DNA of 64,000 bases, from NCBI GenBank assembly GCA_009777095.1, contig WRMN01000001.1, positions 1 through 64,000 on the forward strand. Direction: 5' to 3'. A program made the translations under genes and the position numbers. Numbering within the stretch: the first letter of the stretch is position 1; each line of letters starts with the position of its first letter. A model generated the notes under the pieces. That model was not told the origin of the DNA, did no database searches, and saw only the letters and a list, made by a program, of their open reading frames with translations. Below, piece by piece: positions 16,919 to 46,183 of the stretch. The stretch is from Bacteroidales bacterium. GTDB lineage: Bacteria > Bacteroidota > Bacteroidia > Bacteroidales > UBA932.

Positions 16919-16953
16919 TTTAAAGTTCAAAGTTTAAAGTTTAAAGTTCAAAT

Positions 16954-16977
16954 GTCATTGCGAGGTACGAAGCAATC
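16954..16977 (+). repeat. Dispersed GTCATTGCGAGG repeat
   Basis: A full copy in the parC-aroK spacer, preceded by tandem TTTAAAGTTCAAAG spacer units (16920-16950). Read in frame with aroK it gives the N-terminal artefact MSLRGTKQS, so it should not be counted as part of the protein. Confidence 0.85.
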
Positions 16978-16996
16978 AAGGTTCAAGGTTGAGGTT

Positions 16997-17497
16997 ATGT
17001 TATCAGAGATTAACAAGCGGGAGTCTTCAATTATTTTTTTGATTGGGTTTATGTGTTGCGGTAAAACAACCTATGGTAAAATTTTGGCTGAAGAACTACG
17101 GTATGATTTTGTAGATACTGATGCCTTGATTGAGCAAAGGCATGGTAAAACCATTGCTGAAATTTTTGCTGTGGAAGGAGAAGAAAAATTTCGGCAATAT
17201 GAGCAAGACGTTTTATGTGATTTATTGCATCAAAAAAACTTGGTAATAGCTTGCGGCGGCGGCCTGCCCTGTTTTTTCGATAATATGGAACGAATGAATG
17301 CCTGCGGCGCTACGATTTATTTAAAAGCAGAGGTGGAATTGTTGGCACAACGTATAGAGAAAGAGAACAACAACCGACAACGGCCTCTTTTGGAAGGCAA
17401 AACAGGCCCGGAATTGCGGGAACATATAGCGCAATTACTGGTGCAGCGCGAGCCTTACTATGAACAGGCAACGATTGTATCGGAGCAGATGTTATAG
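16997..17497 (+). CDS. aroK: Shikimate kinase
   Basis: 166 residues from the ATG at 16997; the frame opens at 16952 but those codons are a dispersed repeat. It phosphorylates shikimate at the 3-OH in aromatic amino-acid synthesis. Walker A is GFMCCGKT, DTDALIE provides the substrate/metal aspartates, and CGGGLPCF is the glycine-rich shikimate site. The C-terminus (EPYYEQATIVSEQML) stops earlier than typical family members, by roughly 20 residues. The stop codon falls inside the 17-bp direct repeat that bounds the following cassette, and the last 115 bp recur at 20340-20454. Confidence 0.92.
   Translation: MLSEINKRESSIIFLIGFMCCGKTTYGKILAEELRYDFVDTDALIEQRHGKTIAEIFAVEGEEKFRQYEQDVLCDLLHQKNLVIACGGGLPCFFDNMERMNACGATIYLKAEVELLAQRIEKENNNRQRPLLEGKTGPELREHIAQLLVQREPYYEQATIVSEQML
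17380..17494 (+). repeat. aroK 3'-end duplication, copy A
   Basis: 115 bp that recur at 20340-20454 with an offset of exactly 2,960 bp. I count five differences: three at third codon positions, two at first. That pattern suggests the copies diverged as coding sequence before being brought together. Confidence 0.92.
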
Positions 17498-17511
17498 GGA
17501 TATTCAGTAAA
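17495..17511 (+). repeat. 17-bp direct repeat, left copy
   Basis: TAGGGATATTCAGTAAA, identical to 20013-20029. Its first three bases are the aroK stop codon. Together the two copies bound the three-gene cassette. Confidence 0.85.
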
Positions 17512-17588
17512 ATCAAAAAAAATCTGCTCATAATGTAAGCACCCCTAAAATCCTACAGCAAATATAGGGATTTTAGCTAACAAGTTTA

Positions 17589-17613
17589 CGTCATTGCGAG
17601 GCACGAAGCAATC
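17589..17613 (+). repeat. Dispersed GTCATTGCGAGG repeat inside the cassette
   Basis: An intact copy (begins CGTCATTGCGAGG, ends CACGAAGCAATC) within the cassette, so the cassette shares the genome's own repeat family. That argues for a close-relative donor rather than a distant one. Confidence 0.85.
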
Positions 17614-17628
17614 TTTTTTCCAAAAAAT

Positions 17629-17659
17629 TTTGCAAATTCAAGAAATATCTCTACATTTG
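17629..17659 (+). promoter_or_regulatory. Bacteroidota-type promoter inside the cassette
   Basis: TTTG (17629-17632), 19-bp spacer, TACATTTG (17652-17659). The transcript should begin near 17666, giving either a small protein from 17696 or a leader of about 420 nt before the lipoprotein gene at 18087. Confidence 0.75.
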
Positions 17660-18086
17660 CCATATAGGAATAAATAAACATCTCCATAACAAACAATGCG
17701 AATTGAATATCAATATGGCATGGTCAGGCTAATGACAATTAAAAGTTTATTAGTTGTTTGCAGCCGTGTCAGTTGTCGGCTTTGCTCGCTTGTTGCCGAA
17801 ATTAGTTATTCAATTATTTGGCGACCGAAAACCTTGTATCTTGCTGAAAATCAATATTTTACCCCCCCCCAACGTGTATAATAAATTCATTATCAATACT
17901 TTACAAGAAATTAACTATTTGGCAATTGGGGAAGAATAATTTTACTTAACTTAGGCGTTGCTATGGTTTCCCTTGTTAGCAACGGCCTGTAAAACAAAAA
18001 TTTACGAAATAGCAAAGGGAACGTTTTTGTAATGTTACACGAGATATAACATCTATTAAAATTATACAAATTTTTAAATTTATGAT

Positions 18087-18869
18087 ATGAAAAAAATAAT
18101 ATTTACCATAATAGGGTTGTTTATTGTTGGAGTCTATTCTTGTAACGATAAGGAATTTGGCATTATTGACAATCAGGCAACTGAAACAGCAATATCAACA
18201 AGGGCGCAAATGGATATTGAATTAATGTGTGAACAATTAGTATCTTCTCCAGAGTTTGCTGAATTTGGAAAACTTTTGGAAAATGTAGGAATGAAATTGT
18301 ATTCAGAAAAGGAGAAGAAACTGGATATGAATATTGATAATATGGATGAATTGATGGTATGGGTTAAACAAAACATTAAGTACACAGCTTATAAAAACAT
18401 TTCTGAATTTGAGAAAGATGTAGAAAAACTATACTCTATTGCTCAGCCCCTTAGACTTCAGTATAGTGATATTTTTTTGAATAATAATATTGAGTTATTA
18501 AAGGCAGTGGCACTAAAAGAAGCCTTAAAGAAGCCAAGTGCTATTCCTTATCAAGCTAAATACCAAGATGCTGAGTTAAGCGCAGATTGTATAGGTGATA
18601 TGTGGAATTGTTTACAAACAGCTGTGAACAACTATGACGGAAAGATGCCCGGTATAATAGTTATGGGTATCTTTTGCCCTCTTTGTGCACTAGGTGCATG
18701 GAGTTATGCCTATAATACCTTTCAGGATGAAAAAAAAGTATGTGAAAAAACAGCTTATGACTGTTTGGGGCTGCAAGCGATAGACGAGACTATAATAGAC
18801 GATGGTGTAGCGGAAGAAGAAATTATAATAAACGAGGATGTGATGGAAGAAGATATGATAGATGAGTAG
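18087..18869 (+). CDS. Lipoprotein of unknown function
   Basis: 260 residues, family not recognised. A signal peptide ends in the lipobox VYSC (Cys about 19). The middle is a helical, charged region. Near residues 170-215 lies a short Cys-rich hydrophobic segment with IFCPLCALGAWSYAY and then VCEKTAYDCLGL, reminiscent of short Bacteroidota exported proteins or peptides with a membrane-active patch. The last 30 residues are almost purely acidic and hydrophobic (EEEIIINEDVMEED). AT-rich compared with aroK. First of three cassette genes on one strand. Confidence 0.7.
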   Translation: MKKIIFTIIGLFIVGVYSCNDKEFGIIDNQATETAISTRAQMDIELMCEQLVSSPEFAEFGKLLENVGMKLYSEKEKKLDMNIDNMDELMVWVKQNIKYTAYKNISEFEKDVEKLYSIAQPLRLQYSDIFLNNNIELLKAVALKEALKKPSAIPYQAKYQDAELSADCIGDMWNCLQTAVNNYDGKMPGIIVMGIFCPLCALGAWSYAYNTFQDEKKVCEKTAYDCLGLQAIDETIIDDGVAEEEIIINEDVMEEDMIDE

Positions 18870-18981
18870 GAAGTGGCAGACGGAGCGGGGTTATAATAAG
18901 TAATCTGAGTAATGCCACAATTTGTTAAAAATAAAACAGTTGACATTTATGCATTTTACTAATTCCTAAAAATAATATGAT

Positions 18982-19266
18982 ATGACTATAAAGAAAAAGA
19001 ATTTGATACTACAATTTAGAGGAGTATTTGCATTGATAATTTTGGTATTTTTTGCACTTCCTTTATTCTTTAAAAAAATTCACGTTGCAGTACCAAAATG
19101 GATGGAGTCGGAGATGAGAGGAGTAATCATTATGATAATACTGATAGTATATTCTATTCTTGAACTTTGGCTGCAAAACTTTTTTAAGAAAAAATGGAAC
19201 GAAAGGGATTATACTCCGATTATTGTTATAATAATTGCTGTATTACTGGGCATAGCATTAATGTAA
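18982..19266 (+). CDS. Small membrane protein
   Basis: 94 residues with three predicted membrane segments (about 14-30, 46-66 and 78-94), the first two joined by a short amphipathic loop with KIHVAVPKWMESEMRG, and a basic stretch KKKWNERDY before the last. No family recognised. It lies 112 bp after the lipoprotein gene and 27 bp before the next gene, so it is probably cotranscribed with the latter. Confidence 0.6.
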   Translation: MTIKKKNLILQFRGVFALIILVFFALPLFFKKIHVAVPKWMESEMRGVIIMIILIVYSILELWLQNFFKKKWNERDYTPIIVIIIAVLLGIALM

Positions 19267-19293
19267 TATTAACACTTTTAAAAATAAGTTTTT

Positions 19294-19920
19294 ATGAAAA
19301 AACACATTTTATTAATGATTTTGGCAGTCGTAATAGTGTCTGCTGCCTTTGGACAGGATAGACGTTATGAGTTTGAAAGCGCTATTCTGAAAAAGAACAC
19401 CGTAACGAGAATCGGATTAACAGAACAAACTTTTTCCACTGTATCCTATATTGTCGACTACGGCCGCAAGGAGGTCGGGGAAATTGTCATGAACATAGGC
19501 GGTCAGACGGTTACTATGTTAGCCATAATGAAAGATGGCTATATTTACGGTGCCAACATGGCCTTAAAGCAAGGGACCAAAACCAACATAGCCACTATGA
19601 GCGATTTCAAGACTATAAATTTTTTAAACTTGACCGATGAGGTAAAAGAGACATACCAAATTGAGGAAAAGGGCAATGAACAGGTTTTAGGAAAAGACTG
19701 CAAGCGTTACAACATGGCTTTTACAACCCAAGGACAGAGCGTGAAAGGTTCCGTATGGGTATGGCAGGGATTGATGCTCAAAACATTTATGGCCACTGAC
19801 GAAATTATCATTGTGGACGAAGTAACCGAGATACAGGAAGGTGTGGAAATCGCAGAAGAAAAGTTCGAATTACCCGAAGACATTGATTTTGTGGAAGGAA
19901 TACCACAGCTATTTCCTTGA
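19294..19920 (+). CDS. Exported protein, DUF4412/LolA-like in outline
   Basis: 208 residues with a signal peptide ending AAFGQ (about 21). The mature protein is beta-rich; the segment VLGKDCKRYNMAF followed later by VWVWQGLMLK recalls the conserved GxxCxxY...W...G layout of DUF4412-type periplasmic proteins, but I cannot confirm a family. The C-terminus is acidic (EEKFELPEDIDF). Codon use is closer to the chromosomal genes than that of the lipoprotein upstream. Last gene of the cassette. Confidence 0.65.
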   Translation: MKKHILLMILAVVIVSAAFGQDRRYEFESAILKKNTVTRIGLTEQTFSTVSYIVDYGRKEVGEIVMNIGGQTVTMLAIMKDGYIYGANMALKQGTKTNIATMSDFKTINFLNLTDEVKETYQIEEKGNEQVLGKDCKRYNMAFTTQGQSVKGSVWVWQGLMLKTFMATDEIIIVDEVTEIQEGVEIAEEKFELPEDIDFVEGIPQLFP

Positions 19921-20012
19921 AAAACTGCCACTTTGAATGGATTGATTGTTGAAACGAGCGGGAACCAATCGCTATTTGCCAATATCGTGTTTATAGCTAC
20001 AGGCCGTCAAAG

Positions 20013-20029
20013 TAGGGATATTCAGTAAA
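20013..20029 (+). repeat. 17-bp direct repeat, right copy
   Basis: TAGGGATATTCAGTAAA, identical to 17495-17511. It is followed within ten bases by the terminator hairpin at 20038. Confidence 0.85.
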
Positions 20030-20037
20030 TAAAATTC

Positions 20038-20079
20038 AAATCCCAATAAATTTATTTTGAATATGTTGGGATTTTTTTT
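20038..20079 (+). terminator. Intrinsic terminator
   Basis: Stem AAATCCCAA (20038-20046) with TTGGGATTT (20066-20074), followed by a run of T to 20079. It would end the cassette transcript, and in an uninterrupted locus would end aroK. Confidence 0.8.
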
Positions 20080-20098
20080 GTCTTTGTCCATTAAGCCT

Positions 20099-20155
20099 CA
20101 TACAATAATAATTATAAATTTACGCATTAAAAATTACTCACACAATCTCCTCTCC
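20099..20155 (-). pseudogene. Remnant of recJ 3' end and its flank
   Basis: This 57-bp stretch matches 20980-21037, the end of recJ plus the spacer up to the next ATG. The blocks CATACAATAATAATTATAAA and TTACTCACACAATCTCCTCTC are shared, with a diverged stretch between. It lies where recJ would end if the cassette-bearing arrangement had its own recJ. Confidence 0.75.
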
Positions 20156-20339
20156 TGACTTCGACACTGGGGCTCCCAAAAACCAAAACAACAAATTAGA
20201 GCCATATATCTTAGTACAATCGTTGGTGAATTAAGCGTTTTTCTTAAACAAGTGTCAAACTCAAAAGGCTTTCAGCCTTTATTCCCTCGTTCAATTTTTC
20301 TTTGGGACACCCAAAATGGCGTTGCAAAAATCGCAATAT

Positions 20340-20454
20340 ACGGCCTCTTTTGGAAGGCAAAACAGGTACGGAATTGCGGGAACATATAGCGCAATTACTG
20401 GTGCAGCGCGAGCCTTACTATGAACAGGCTGCGATTGTGTCGGAGCAGATGTTT
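20340..20454 (+). pseudogene. aroK 3'-end remnant, copy B
   Basis: It encodes the last 38 or so residues of shikimate kinase in frame, ending SEQMF and a stop, with no start or kinase core. It is about 96% identical to the end of aroK at 17380-17494. Confidence 0.9.
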
Positions 20455-20520
20455 TAAGCAGGACTTTTGTAGATAGTGGAAACTTCGATGCAGAGGTTCA
20501 TAATTCCGCACGAAGAACAA

Positions 20521-20982
20521 CTAAAAATTAAGGCATAAGCTAATCCCTATGGGCGTAGGAGTAATATAGAGTGCTGTAGAATTATTTTTATGCAAAGTTA
20601 AGGCTTTTTTCATCTTACCTTCACCTACATAATACATAATAATTCCTCCTATCATAACTCCGCCGCCGCCAATCAGTAGAGCCGTATTTCCTTTACCTCC
20701 GGCAATACGGGTTCCTATATCATAGCCAAAACAAAACGAACCAATAGAGCCAACAACAATTCCGACTACGCTTAGATTTTTCCCGGATTTAAACATATTA
20801 CCGACAGCTGCATTTTGAGTATTTAATTCACTCATAAATACATCAAAAGAGACTTGTTGACTACCTACATAGTAATTGTGGCCCCATGTTCCTGCTTTGA
20901 AGCTCAAATCTCCCATTTGTTCTTGTGCTATAAGTACAATTGGGGTAATCATAAATAATAAACACCAAAAAACTGTTTTCAT
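20521..20982 (-). CDS. Exported protein of unknown function
   Basis: 153 residues with a signal peptide ending LIAQ (about 20). Two glycine-rich hydrophobic segments follow (about 72-92 and 98-118, including LLIGGGGVMIGGIIMYY), then GEGKMKKALTLHK and a beta-strand-like tail ending SLCLNF. This plan, signal peptide, glycine-rich hairpin helix and short barrel-like end, is common among unnamed Bacteroidota envelope proteins. The gene lies 37 bp upstream of the recJ stop, on the same strand as recJ. It occupies the position in unit 2 that the three-gene cassette occupies in unit 1. Confidence 0.7.
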   Translation of the reverse strand: MKTVFWCLLFMITPIVLIAQEQMGDLSFKAGTWGHNYYVGSQQVSFDVFMSELNTQNAAVGNMFKSGKNLSVVGIVVGSIGSFCFGYDIGTRIAGGKGNTALLIGGGGVMIGGIIMYYVGEGKMKKALTLHKNNSTALYITPTPIGISLCLNF

Positions 20983-21019
20983 ACAATAATAATTATAAAA
21001 TTTATATCCTAAAACTTAC

Positions 21020-22789
21020 TCACACAATCTCCTCTCTCCGCTTGATGTCTTTGACGCGCAGCTGTATGTTGGCTATGCCGCGGTAGTAGTTCTCGGCTAC
21101 AGAGTAGCAGACATCTGCCGAATTGCCGCTTTGCAGATAATCAAAATGTTCCGACTGGTAAAAAGCTATGGCCGAAATGGGACGATAAGGCTCGTCTTCC
21201 TGTATTAATTCCAATTTTAAATGTCCTGCGTCGCTGCCTACAACACGGCCGTTGCCGTTGTCATACACATTTTCGGTCAGAAATACCGGCGACATATTGC
21301 CCGGCCCGAATGGCTGGAACTGTTTGAGCAGTCGGAAAAACTTAGGGGTAATCTGCTTAAAGTCGAGATAGGCATCAATATCTATTTGCGGGGTGAGTAT
21401 CTCTTCGGAAATGTGTTCAACTACATAAGTTTCAAAACGATGACAGAATTGTTCAAAGTTCTCTTCGCGCAAAGTAAGTCCGGCGGCATACATGTGTCCG
21501 CCGAAAGTTTCCAGCAGGTCAGAGCAATTCTCTATGGCTTCATAAAGGTCGAAGCCGGGAATACTGCGTGCAGAGCCGGTAATAAACCCATTGCTTTGCG
21601 TCAGTACAATAGACGGACGGTAAAAAGTTTCCACTAAGCGCGATGCAACAATACCTACAACACCCTTATGCCAATTAGGATTGTAAAGAACGGTACTCTT
21701 CTTGCTCATTATCTCAGCATCGTTCATTACCATGTTTATGGCTTCCTGCGTAGTTTCACGGTCAACGCTCTTACGGTCGTTGTTGTGGGTATTAATCGTT
21801 AAACCGATTCGTGTTGCTACTTCCTCATTTTCGGCAACCAACAGTTCTACGGCAGCTTTTCCCGACTCCATACGGCCTGCGGCGTTAATGCGCGGCCCTA
21901 TTTTGAACACAATGTCGTCTATCGCAATATGGTGTTTTTCTAAACCTGCCAATTTAATCATAGAAAGCAAACCTCTTCTTGGCTTGGTATTCAGTTGTTT
22001 GAGACCATAATGCGCCAAAATGCGGTTTTCGCCCGTAATAGATACCAAATCGGCAGAAATACTTACTACCACTAAGTCAAGATAAGGGTAAAGCTGTTCC
22101 AAGGGCATCTTATGCTTTATACAGTAAGCCTGCATCATTTTAAAGCCCACGCCGCAGCCCGAAAGGTCATTGAAAGGATAATTGCAGTCGTGCCGTTTAG
22201 GGTCAAGCACCGCTACGGCTTTTGGCAAGATTTCGTCGGGGAGGTGGTGGTCGCAGACAATGAAATCAATACTGCGATCGTTGGCATAGTCGATTTTTTC
22301 ATTGGCCTTAATACCGCAGTCGAGCGCTATAATAAGCGAAATGCTGTGCTCCTTTGCATAATTAATGCCTTGGTAAGAAATTCCGTACCCTTCATCGTAA
22401 CGGTCTGGAATATAAAAAGCAACGTTAGCGCCAAGCTCTTTTAGAAAACTGTAAACCAAAGCGACGGCGGTAGTTCCGTCCACATCGTAATCGCCATATA
22501 CCATAATCTTTTCCTGCTTAGCTATAGCCCTGTCAATACGGTCAATAGCCTTATCCATGTCTTTCATCAGGAACGGGTCATGAAGGTTAGCCAACTCAGG
22601 ACGGAAAAAATTTTTTGCCTCGTCAAATGTGTTTATATTCCTCTGTATTAATAAATTAGACAGAGTATGGTCAATACCGAGTTCTGAAGCCAAATGACGT
22701 ACAGCTATCGGATTTCCTTGTTCCTTTAATATCCACTTTTTATCAAGCGCCAAAACAAAAATTTTCACAAAGATACTATTTTTTTCCAA
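21020..22789 (-). CDS. recJ: Single-stranded-DNA exonuclease RecJ
   Basis: About 577-589 residues. RecJ degrades single-stranded DNA 5' to 3' in recombination and mismatch repair. DHH-family motifs are visible: VYGDYDVDGTTAV, ALDCGI, VCDHHLPDE, and in the DHHA1 part GSARSIPGFDLYEAI with FGGHMYAAGL. No ATG lies near the 5' end: candidates are TTG 22789, GTG 22768 or TTG 22753, the last just before DKKWILK, where most homologues begin. The start is therefore uncertain. Confidence 0.95.
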   Translation of the reverse strand: MEKNSIFVKIFVLALDKKWILKEQGNPIAVRHLASELGIDHTLSNLLIQRNINTFDEAKNFFRPELANLHDPFLMKDMDKAIDRIDRAIAKQEKIMVYGDYDVDGTTAVALVYSFLKELGANVAFYIPDRYDEGYGISYQGINYAKEHSISLIIALDCGIKANEKIDYANDRSIDFIVCDHHLPDEILPKAVAVLDPKRHDCNYPFNDLSGCGVGFKMMQAYCIKHKMPLEQLYPYLDLVVVSISADLVSITGENRILAHYGLKQLNTKPRRGLLSMIKLAGLEKHHIAIDDIVFKIGPRINAAGRMESGKAAVELLVAENEEVATRIGLTINTHNNDRKSVDRETTQEAINMVMNDAEIMSKKSTVLYNPNWHKGVVGIVASRLVETFYRPSIVLTQSNGFITGSARSIPGFDLYEAIENCSDLLETFGGHMYAAGLTLREENFEQFCHRFETYVVEHISEEILTPQIDIDAYLDFKQITPKFFRLLKQFQPFGPGNMSPVFLTENVYDNGNGRVVGSDAGHLKLELIQEDEPYRPISAIAFYQSEHFDYLQSGNSADVCYSVAENYYRGIANIQLRVKDIKRREEIV

Positions 22790-30207: not shown

Positions 30208-30918
30208 ATGGATAGATTACTGTCAGTTTCAATGTTATCTGCTAATTTTGGACGATTGGACGATAGCGTAGATATGGTAAATGAAAGTGTAGCCGACTGG
30301 TTTCATTTGGATATCATGGACGGGGTATTTGTACCTAATATTTCTTTTGGAATTCCTGTTATTCAGGCTATTGCAAAAAAAGCGATAAAGCCTTTGGACG
30401 TGCATTTGATGATTGTTGACCCCGACCGTTATATAGAGGCCTTCAAAGAAGTCGGCGCACACTTGTTAAGCATTCATTATGAGGCGTGTACACATCTTCA
30501 TCGAAGTCTGCACCGTATTAAAGCATTAGGCATGAAAGCGGGAGTGGTCTTAAATCCCCATACCTCGGTAGAAGTTTTAAGCGATATTATACAAGAGACT
30601 GATTTTGTATTGCTTATGTCTGTAAATCCGGGTTTTGGCGGACAAAGTTTCATAGAAAACACCTACAATAAGATTACACGTTTAAAAGAAATGATTGTAA
30701 AGGCTGGCAGTACGACCTTAATAGAGATAGACGGCGGTGTAAGTCAGCAAAATGCGGACCGTCTTTATGCCGCCGGAGCAGATATTTTAGTGGCAGGAAA
30801 CGCCATTTTTGCCACAGGCGACCCCTTGCAGAATATAAAACAGTTCAAAGTTCAAACGTTATTGCAGGAACAGGTTGCTTCGTGCCTCGCAATGACAACG
30901 AAGCAATCAACTTTATAA
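30208..30918 (+). CDS. rpe: Ribulose-phosphate 3-epimerase
   Basis: 236 residues from ATG 30208. It interconverts ribulose 5-phosphate and xylulose 5-phosphate in the pentose phosphate pathway. TIM-barrel motifs: [41 protein letters not shown] and [12 protein letters not shown], with the metal-binding His and Asp residues in place. The natural end is near [14 protein letters not shown]; the last two dozen residues ([16 protein letters not shown]) are translated from a dispersed repeat, an acquired tail. pgi follows 22 bp downstream, a carbohydrate pair. Confidence 0.96.
30857..30907. repeat. Dispersed repeat, compound copy fused to rpe
   Basis: A plus-strand arm CGTTATTGCAGG and a reverse arm TTGCTTCGTGCCTCGCAATGAC, then GAAGCAATC. 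It lies inside the reading frame at the 3' end of rpe, preceded by the AGTTCAAAGTTCAAA spacer unit. Confidence 0.85.
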
Positions 30919-38868: not shown

Positions 38869-40509
38869 TTAAATCGGGATACCCTTCACCCTTTTATGCT
38901 TGAGAACCAAGCGGGACAAAGTATATAAGCACAGCAGGACTAAGGCAAAAACCGCTATGCGGCCAATCATGTCGCCGTTCCGCACGTAAAAGGTAATATC
39001 TTCATTAGCATTGATGCTGCCTTTTAAAGCGGCGGGTGCCCACCATTCGGTACGTTGTTCGATTTCGCCGCGCTGGTTAATCAAAGCCGAGATGCCGGTG
39101 TTGGCGCTTCGGGCAATACTCCGCCGCGTTTCAATAGCCCGCAGCGATGATTGATATAACAGTTGTTTATATCCCGCCGTATGATTTCCCCACCAGCCGT
39201 CGTTTGAAATAATAAACATCAAATTAGCACCCTTTTTTACGTATTCCGTATAAAAACGGCCGTAAATACCTTCATAACAAATAGCTGTTCCTATCCTGAA
39301 AGGCCGGCCGGGCGACTTGAACACCTTACGCACCGAATCAATTCCCATCGTGCCGACATTACCGCCCAAGTCAATATAATAATTTTCCAAAAAACGGAAA
39401 AATTTCGGATAAGGCGTTTTTTCCGCGCCAATCACTAACTTTGATTTATGGTAAAGTTGAATGACCGTATCCGCAGCAATTTGCACGGCCGTATTGTAAG
39501 TATCGTAAAAGCCTCCTTCCATCTTACGGGCTGTCTCAGTGGGACGCTGGTCGGTATAATACTTATAGGCGGTAGTCGCTCCTGTAACTATGGCTAAATG
39601 CGGGTGTTGAGCTACAAAGTCGTATAGTCGCCGAATGTCGCGATGGAATATAATCTGCTGTTCAATAATGTGGCTCAGCGCCGTTTCAGGACCAATAACA
39701 TAATCGGTAGCGGTGTCTATTTTAGCAGCGCCCAACGACAAGAATATATCCAACTGCTCCTCAGCCGACATCCCGCTGTATTTATCGCTATAAGGGTCAA
39801 TATTCGGCTGTATAACCACTACATTGCAGGGAGCAGTTTTTTCTTCGTAAGTATAAAACCGTACCAAGGAAATAACGATGGGCAAGATTATTAGAATGAA
39901 TAAAGAACAATGAATAAAGAACCATCTTTTGAACTTTAAACCTTGATTGCTTCGTACCTCGCAATGACGATTAAACTTTGAACTAAGGTGCTTCAAATAA
40001 GCGAAAAGCGATAAGTTAACTAACCAGGCCCAAAGAGAGCCGCCGAGTACGCCAGTGTATTCAAACCATTGGACAAGCTGAATATCCTTGGAAAAGCCAT
40101 TCCCCAGCACTAACCATGGCCAGGAGATTTCCGCATCAAAATAGAAATATTCCCAGGCTATCCATAAAGCCACTAAAAAGGCATAACCGATGGCATTGGT
40201 AGTTTTCTTTTTCACCCAACGGAAAAGGGCAAAAATCAGCACCATCTGCACACTATTGCCGATAATAGCCCCCACTGCGCCAAACAAGGTTGCCTTATAG
40301 ATCCAGTAGGTAGTAATAATATTCCAAACTATAAAAGTAAGCGTATAATACTTCCAGCACCCACGGGCCGACCGGCGGCTAAAGTCTTCTTCTACCAATA
40401 ATAAGGGCAACCAGGCAACTAAGAGGATAAGCCCTGAAAAGGGAGCATGCCAGGGCAAACTCAATAAAACAGCGCTTAAGAGCGAAAGCAAGAGGTTTCG
40501 TTTCAACAT
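38869..40509 (-). CDS. lnt: Apolipoprotein N-acyltransferase
   Basis: 546 residues. Lnt adds the third acyl chain to lipoproteins in the inner membrane. Membrane segments fill residues 5-175 and about 200-215, then a nitrilase domain with the triad Glu in IGPETALSH, Lys in GAEKTPYP and Cys in AICYEGIYG, and one last membrane helix (about 515-535). Residues 181-190 (RHCEVRSNQG) and their flanks are translated from a dispersed repeat inserted in frame, in the loop before the nitrilase domain. Three-residue periodicity is kept, so the enzyme is probably functional. Confidence 0.94.
   Translation of the reverse strand: MLKRNLLLSLLSAVLLSLPWHAPFSGLILLVAWLPLLLVEEDFSRRSARGCWKYYTLTFIVWNIITTYWIYKATLFGAVGAIIGNSVQMVLIFALFRWVKKKTTNAIGYAFLVALWIAWEYFYFDAEISWPWLVLGNGFSKDIQLVQWFEYTGVLGGSLWAWLVNLSLFAYLKHLSSKFNRHCEVRSNQGLKFKRWFFIHCSLFILIILPIVISLVRFYTYEEKTAPCNVVVIQPNIDPYSDKYSGMSAEEQLDIFLSLGAAKIDTATDYVIGPETALSHIIEQQIIFHRDIRRLYDFVAQHPHLAIVTGATTAYKYYTDQRPTETARKMEGGFYDTYNTAVQIAADTVIQLYHKSKLVIGAEKTPYPKFFRFLENYYIDLGGNVGTMGIDSVRKVFKSPGRPFRIGTAICYEGIYGRFYTEYVKKGANLMFIISNDGWWGNHTAGYKQLLYQSSLRAIETRRSIARSANTGISALINQRGEIEQRTEWWAPAALKGSINANEDITFYVRNGDMIGRIAVFALVLLCLYTLSRLVLKHKRVKGIPI
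39945..39969 (-). repeat. Dispersed repeat inside lnt
   Basis: A full copy in minus orientation (begins CGTCATTGCGAGG, ends TACGAAGCAATC when read on that strand), with adjoining TTCAAAGTTTAA spacer units on both sides. It lies within the coding sequence of lnt without breaking the frame. Confidence 0.9.
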
Positions 40510-46158: not shown

Positions 46159-46183
46159 CGTCATTGCGAGGAACGAAGCAATC
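46159..46183 (+). repeat. Dispersed GTCATTGCGAGG repeat
   Basis: Full copy between comF and hutI, flanked by AGTTCAAGGTTCAAT and AAAGTTTAAATT spacer units. Confidence 0.88.

Follow-up and report, generated by a model that had tools for sequence, protein, structure and literature searches.

Leader-peptide transcription attenuators of the trp and erm types place a hairpin directly after a leader open reading frame (ORF), and the poly-C/poly-G contingency loci of Neisseria, Campylobacter, and Helicobacter carry a homopolymeric tract in a surface gene or promoter spacer. The leader described here lies between aroK and recJ in a gut-type Bacteroidales bacterium, ahead of a three-gene operon on the first 64 kb of contig WRMN01000001.1; this whole stretch is what was analyzed and is called the window. 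Like the attenuators, it has a hairpin immediately after a leader ORF. Unlike them, it has no stretch in which one regulatory codon is repeated, and most of its copies lack a U-run after the hairpin. What it shares with the contingency loci is a homopolymeric C tract, rare in itself, that precedes or lies within the expression unit of a surface gene; here, though, the tract is inside the leader ORF and is known from a single assembly.

The arrest peptides that monitor Sec function (SecM, MifM, VemP, and ApcA/ApdA/ApdP) are encoded upstream of secA, secDF, or yidC (PMC10987492). The leader, like them, is an upstream short ORF that closes with a brief conserved motif, its N-terminal part varying and in many cases hydrophobic. 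The leader differs in its motif, which is IWxLGKNNF rather than a RAPP-like, NSP, or NAP motif, in the covarying hairpin that follows, and in its genes: arrest peptides precede protein-localization genes, whereas the leader precedes genes for secreted peptides, ribosomally synthesized and post-translationally modified peptides (RiPPs), and lipoproteins. Judged by its sequence, the leader resembles the arrest peptides in architecture, and we do not claim it as one of them. Putative leader ORFs in Bacteroidales 5′ untranslated regions (UTRs) have a precedent in Bacteroides thetaiotaomicron, where short ORFs occur in long 5′ UTRs; unlike the leader, these are given no shared motif or hairpin family in the part of that report drawn on here (PMC7366714). 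A full-text literature search, outside which most subscription journals lie, returned no paper for LGKNNF, NVEAL, or NVEALA, and the combination of motif and hairpin is apparently undescribed.

A leader ORF and hairpin ahead of the cargo operon

The aroK–recJ junction is present twice in the window, and the copy next to aroK (unit 1) holds the operon headed by the leader. The leader comprises a TAnnTTTG promoter, a short ORF with a C9 tract, the IWxLGKNNF codons, and a 10-bp hairpin:

17652..17659, plus strand: Bacteroidetes −7 promoter element TACATTTG, 44 nt upstream of the leader ORF
17696..17881, plus strand: leader ORF, 61 codons as assembled, with its ATG at 17696
17862..17870, plus strand: C9 tract within the leader ORF
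17917..17949, plus strand: leader-peptide codons ATT TGG CAA TTG GGG AAG AAT AAT TTT ACT TAA (IWQLGKNNFT*)
17954..17987, plus strand: covarying hairpin, 10 bp in the consensus
17887-17987: leader segment with the IWxLGKNNF codons and the covarying hairpin

Used as a DNA query, the region preceding the 260-aa gene of the operon returned matches upstream of a RiPP-like precursor gene on contig 22 of the same genome (G000) and upstream of several secreted-protein genes in the sister species G001. Matches in G038 and G044 lacked the peptide codons and were treated as chance. A first covariance model found two copies in G000, eight in G001, and weak matches in other genera. With a second model, the leader was found in at least 18 of 300 family genomes, spread over nine genera, a lower bound because few candidates per genome were scored. 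In other Bacteroidales families, inspection recognized the peptide codons in ∼14 of 29 model-hit loci, where they stand before exported or GG-type genes; the remaining hits across the order, about half, were without the codons and were treated as chance. No Rfam family matched the leader above threshold. The genes downstream of leaders encode NVEALA peptides (PF14055), GG-type RiPP-like precursors, lipoproteins, and exported proteins; the RiPP precursor behind a leader is TIGR04149-like, below cut-off. The unit 1 operon is one of a set of operons for surface or secreted products headed by a shared leader and is not random cargo.

The core peptide has the consensus (I)W-x-L-G-K-N-[ND]-[FL]-[DET]. 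In 34 copies, single-nucleotide codon differences were synonymous or nonsynonymous in a ratio of 1608:844 in the motif frame versus 440:2079 and 388:1975 in the other frames; these are pairwise counts from related copies and do not represent independent events. Diversity at the three codon positions was 0.20, 0.14, and 0.47, highest at the third (column-permutation p = 4e-4). The region upstream is open in the motif frame for a median of 60 codons, versus 18.5 and 8 in the other two frames (n = 46), and most family copies have an in-frame ATG 41–66 codons before the motif. Many of the N-termini, but not all, are hydrophobic. TAnnTTTG occurs 25–44 nt upstream of the ATG in seven of the eight genus leader ORFs examined, against a rate in the window of 0.6 per kb per strand. 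TTTGG had been considered as the −7 promoter element and was dropped because other families without TTTGG keep the codons and TAnnTTTG precedes the leader ORF.

Conservation of this kind might instead reflect a DNA or RNA site for a binding protein that merely resembles codons, the C tracts then being ordinary. The lack of an in-frame start codon in six of nine genus copies, the window copy included, speaks for such a site. We nevertheless regard it as improbable, given that the changes follow synonymous codon sets (TTG/TTA/CTG, AAA/AAG, AAT/AAC, and GGN), that the upstream region is open in frame, and that a promoter precedes the leader ORF.

The hairpin is conserved as a structure. Across 34 sequences, all 10 pairs had changes on both sides and 97.6% of cells were paired, a level matched by none of 500 shuffles; in slid controls, pairing for the whole structure dropped to 32%–51%. 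When a model derived from the genus only was used to align the sequences of other genera, these were 96.6% paired with changes supporting 9 of 10 pairs, although such alignments lean towards the model. A second helix predicted within the peptide codons was 75% paired and was rejected as a by-product of coding conservation.

Two groups of further copies were noted. On contig 22 of G000 (L063; 3800-4070, minus strand), a RiPP-like precursor (MKTLTELNNNYKDIDSTNVLSDEEMRNALGGACKSGC...) lies behind the same leader as in the window, and its counterpart in the sister species, L169 of G001, is flanked by the same genes. In G084:C114:43873-56033, four leader copies fall within 12 kb, at least two of them before NVEALA-type genes; this group is possibly a peptide gene cluster.

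C tracts and the frame of the leader

The C9 tract is the only C or G run of seven or more in the window. As assembled, the leader ORF misses the motif frame by one base, and one added C would read into IWQLGKNNFT*. The tract thus stands where a change in its length would alter the reading frame, in the manner of a contingency locus, with C9 out of frame and C10 in frame. The copy in G001 with a C14 tract is off the motif frame by the same step, and three genus copies without a perfect C tract are in frame with the motif. The window's own genome has five C tracts of nine or more (C9, C12, C12, C18, and C11), and G001 has one (C14). All of them lie within such leaders or within short leader ORFs, and the genes that follow are a lipoprotein gene, a TonB-receptor-like gene, or a RiPP precursor gene. 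Besides the window tract, those of the own genome are:

G000:C10:114-125: C12 tract (L230)
G000:C18:33256-33267: C12 tract (L239)
G000:C22:28311-28328: C18 tract (L244)
G000:C28:17930-17940: C11 tract (L254)

The leader ORFs on contigs 10 and 18 share the N-terminal pattern GKYI....RN.VI.N.., and the contig 18 leader, of the C-tract type and without the motif, has an intrinsic terminator.

We infer from these sequences that the window leader would be a leader-peptide control element, phase-variable through slippage in the poly-C tract. Several observations weigh against this view. The C-tract leaders on contigs 10, 18, and 28 lack the IWxLGKNNF motif. Five tracts of nine or more are close in number to simple chance (an estimate of ∼2–3), and it is their lengths (11, 12, 12, and 18) and locations that are unusual. 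The whole leader of the window folds no better than shuffled sequences, so the structural case rests on the covariation of one hairpin, and the hairpin at 17954-17987 is not followed by a U-run, which sets it apart from a plain intrinsic terminator. Finally, one copy (L149) has TAG where TGG is expected and another (L161) is out of frame although it has no C tract; this may reflect decay of some copies or an incorrect frame rule.

Duplication of the aroK–recJ interval

The sequence-only reading proposed that the aroK–recJ junction is duplicated in tandem with different cargo in each copy, and this held. A repeat scan found the 3′ end of aroK twice, at 17380-17496 and 20340-20456 (117 nt, 95% identical); no direct repeat in the window is longer. 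The scan also matched a 57-nt remnant at 20098-20154 to 20979-21036 on the recJ side. The duplicated unit measures 2.96 kb; unit 1 contains three ORFs (260, 94, and 208 aa) and unit 2 a single ORF (153 aa) on the minus strand. The interval is made up as follows:

16952..17497, plus strand: aroK (shikimate kinase), intact; SKI domain, PF01202, E = 1e-42
17380..17496, plus strand: left copy of the aroK 3′ end
17495..17531, plus strand: end "A" remnant of a dispersed insertion sequence (IS) with terminal repeat TAGGGATATTCAGTAAA
18087..18869, plus strand: cargo 1a, predicted lipoprotein of 260 aa; a distant homolog (23%) in G114 is also followed by a small membrane protein
18982..19266, plus strand: cargo 1b, small membrane protein of 94 aa
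19294..19920, plus strand: cargo 1c, exported protein of 208 aa; faint DUF4412 similarity (E = 0.013, below cut-off)
20013..20093, plus strand: end "B" remnant of the same IS family as end "A"
20098..20154: duplicated remnant with the recJ 3′ end (19 nt), intergenic sequence, and the start codon of the 153-aa gene
20155..20340: linker, the right part of which (20232-20340) matches a dispersed repeat at G000:C7
20340..20456, plus strand: right copy of the aroK 3′ end, a 39-codon fragment without its own start
20521..20982, minus strand: cargo 2, exported protein of 153 aa; 57% homolog in G072
21020..22789, minus strand: recJ, intact; DHH, DHHA1, and RecJ_OB domains

The unit 1 remnant joins the last 19 nt of recJ and intergenic sequence to the start codon of the 153-aa gene, and on this evidence unit 1 appears to descend from an interval that once contained this gene. 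That start codon favors a tandem duplication in place of the aroK end, 153-aa gene, and recJ end, after which unit 1 would have lost the 153-aa gene and gained the operon with IS copies; the bracketing of the operon by IS ends at 17495 and 20013 points the same way. The IS remnants have left their mark on aroK itself: its left stop codon, TAG (17495-17497), belongs to TAGGGATATTCAGTAAA, an inserted repeat end that opens with this codon. The element with this terminal repeat has 40 matches in the own genome in a loose search (E up to 1), many of them short fragments, and its other copies are often paired as A(+)...B(−). A decayed copy in G001 encodes a fragment of a DUF772 transposase (IS5/IS1182 group). 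At the operon, however, what was found is two short IS ends in direct rather than inverted orientation, which does not make a simple composite transposon of the IS5/IS1182 type. Duplication in place also requires that the pseudo-copies diverged while the recJ end stayed identical. We consider it quite possible.

The divergence of the copies bears on a second origin, proposed in the sequence-only reading, in which the alternative aroK–recJ intervals of two strains diverged separately and were joined through recombination. The aroK ends are 6% divergent, the cargo differs, and the coding end of recJ is identical between the copies while the intergenic part differs, all of which suit such a fusion. 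That reading had counted five differences in 115 positions, mostly silent; we count six in 115 coding nucleotides, three silent and three missense (P/T, T/A, and L/F), in addition to different stop codons (TAG and TAA). Six changes so divided are uninformative and show no separate evolution under selection. The novel joint is a fragment of a dispersed repeat, which would suit duplication in place equally well. No strain with unit 1 alone or unit 2 alone was present among the genomes compared, which include no conspecific strain. Fusion of two strains' intervals is, in our view, a tentative possibility, about level with duplication in place.

Relatives were examined for the state of the interval. 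The gap between aroK and recJ is 21–235 bp in 10 relatives in which both genes are adjacent, and genes lie between them in just two others, one lipoprotein-like gene in G012 and three genes in G007, all unrelated. In G001, aroK is located elsewhere. These intervals give weak support to a variable site and none to two known alternative haplotypes; the idea of an insertion hotspot draws on G012 and G007 and is weakened by the 10 short gaps. The cargo is patchy in its distribution. Among 200 family genomes, the unit 1 operon had three distant matches besides those in the own genome and the 153-aa gene had five, the best of which (in G072) does not lie beside recJ. Neither the unit 1 proteins nor the 153-aa protein matched a Pfam or NCBIfam family with confidence.

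The junctions of the units are built of repeats, so a rearrangement could have been mediated there, and the same repeats trouble assembly. The linker, 186 bp between the units, partly matches the dispersed repeat on contig 7, with an exact match of 52 nt, and the copies share no exact match longer than 61 nt. The source is a metagenome-assembled genome (MAG; 46 contigs, 88% complete), and several of its contigs end in or near the same IS. These features speak for a chimera assembled from two strains, or from a strain and a repeat, yet the exact matches are shorter than ordinary read lengths, and a misjoin at the 61-mer would have to yield a circle as well as a simple chromosome. We think an assembly error unlikely.

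An integrative element might also attach at the aroK 3′ end and restore the end of the gene; this would leave the 3′ end at either edge and let the left copy complete aroK. Such an element is very hard to reconcile with the rest of the locus: the 2.96-kb unit contains no integrase, the duplication takes in the recJ end and the start of the neighboring gene as well, the copies differ by six changes, and no integrase-bearing relative was seen at aroK in the genomes compared.

Taken together, these findings are probably best explained by a tandem duplication patched with repeats, whose unit 1 operon is headed by the shared leader. The aroK–recJ interval would have been duplicated in place or through uptake of a relative's copy, and then patched with fragments of the IS and of dispersed repeats. 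Unit 2 would have retained the 153-aa gene, and unit 1 would have lost all but its start and come to carry the three-gene operon for exported proteins. Both aroK and recJ would have remained intact, the right aroK end being a dead 39-codon fragment. A crossover between the 117-nt repeats would delete unit 1 and leave aroK complete. The duplication is ordinary genome scarring at an insertion site and requires no function.

Two other repeats were observed. A dispersed repeat, GTCATTGCGAGGNACGAAGCAATC, has five copies in the window (16954-16977, 17590-17613, 30873-30895, 39945-39967, and 46161-46183), often within a longer repeat of the AGTTTAAAGTTCAA type. Near the start of the window, an 85-nt direct repeat (92% identical) lies at 152-236 and 472-556.

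Proposed action of the leader

A ribosome in the right frame that reached IWxLGKNNF would end or pause at the foot of the hairpin. There it would alter the folding of the hairpin and hence read-through, stability, or translation of the downstream mRNA, with an effect of either sign. Slippage in the C tract (C9 out, C10 in) would set whether ribosomes arrive in the motif frame, so that, if this is true, the frameshift that switches a surface product would occur in a leader peptide rather than in the gene itself.

More broadly, it is plausible, though we hold this with some reserve, that many Bacteroidales operons for secreted peptides, RiPPs, and lipoproteins share a new cis-regulator read by the ribosome, a leader ORF ending in (I)[WF]xLGKN[NDK][FL] followed by the covarying hairpin, to which the poly-C tracts of this genus add phase variation of the frame. 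The leader would then be a control element common to NVEALA peptides and RiPP-like precursors. This suggests that one cell could switch its secreted peptides jointly, through the common motif, and singly, through the C tracts, and the predictions are directly testable in culturable Bacteroidales that carry the motif.

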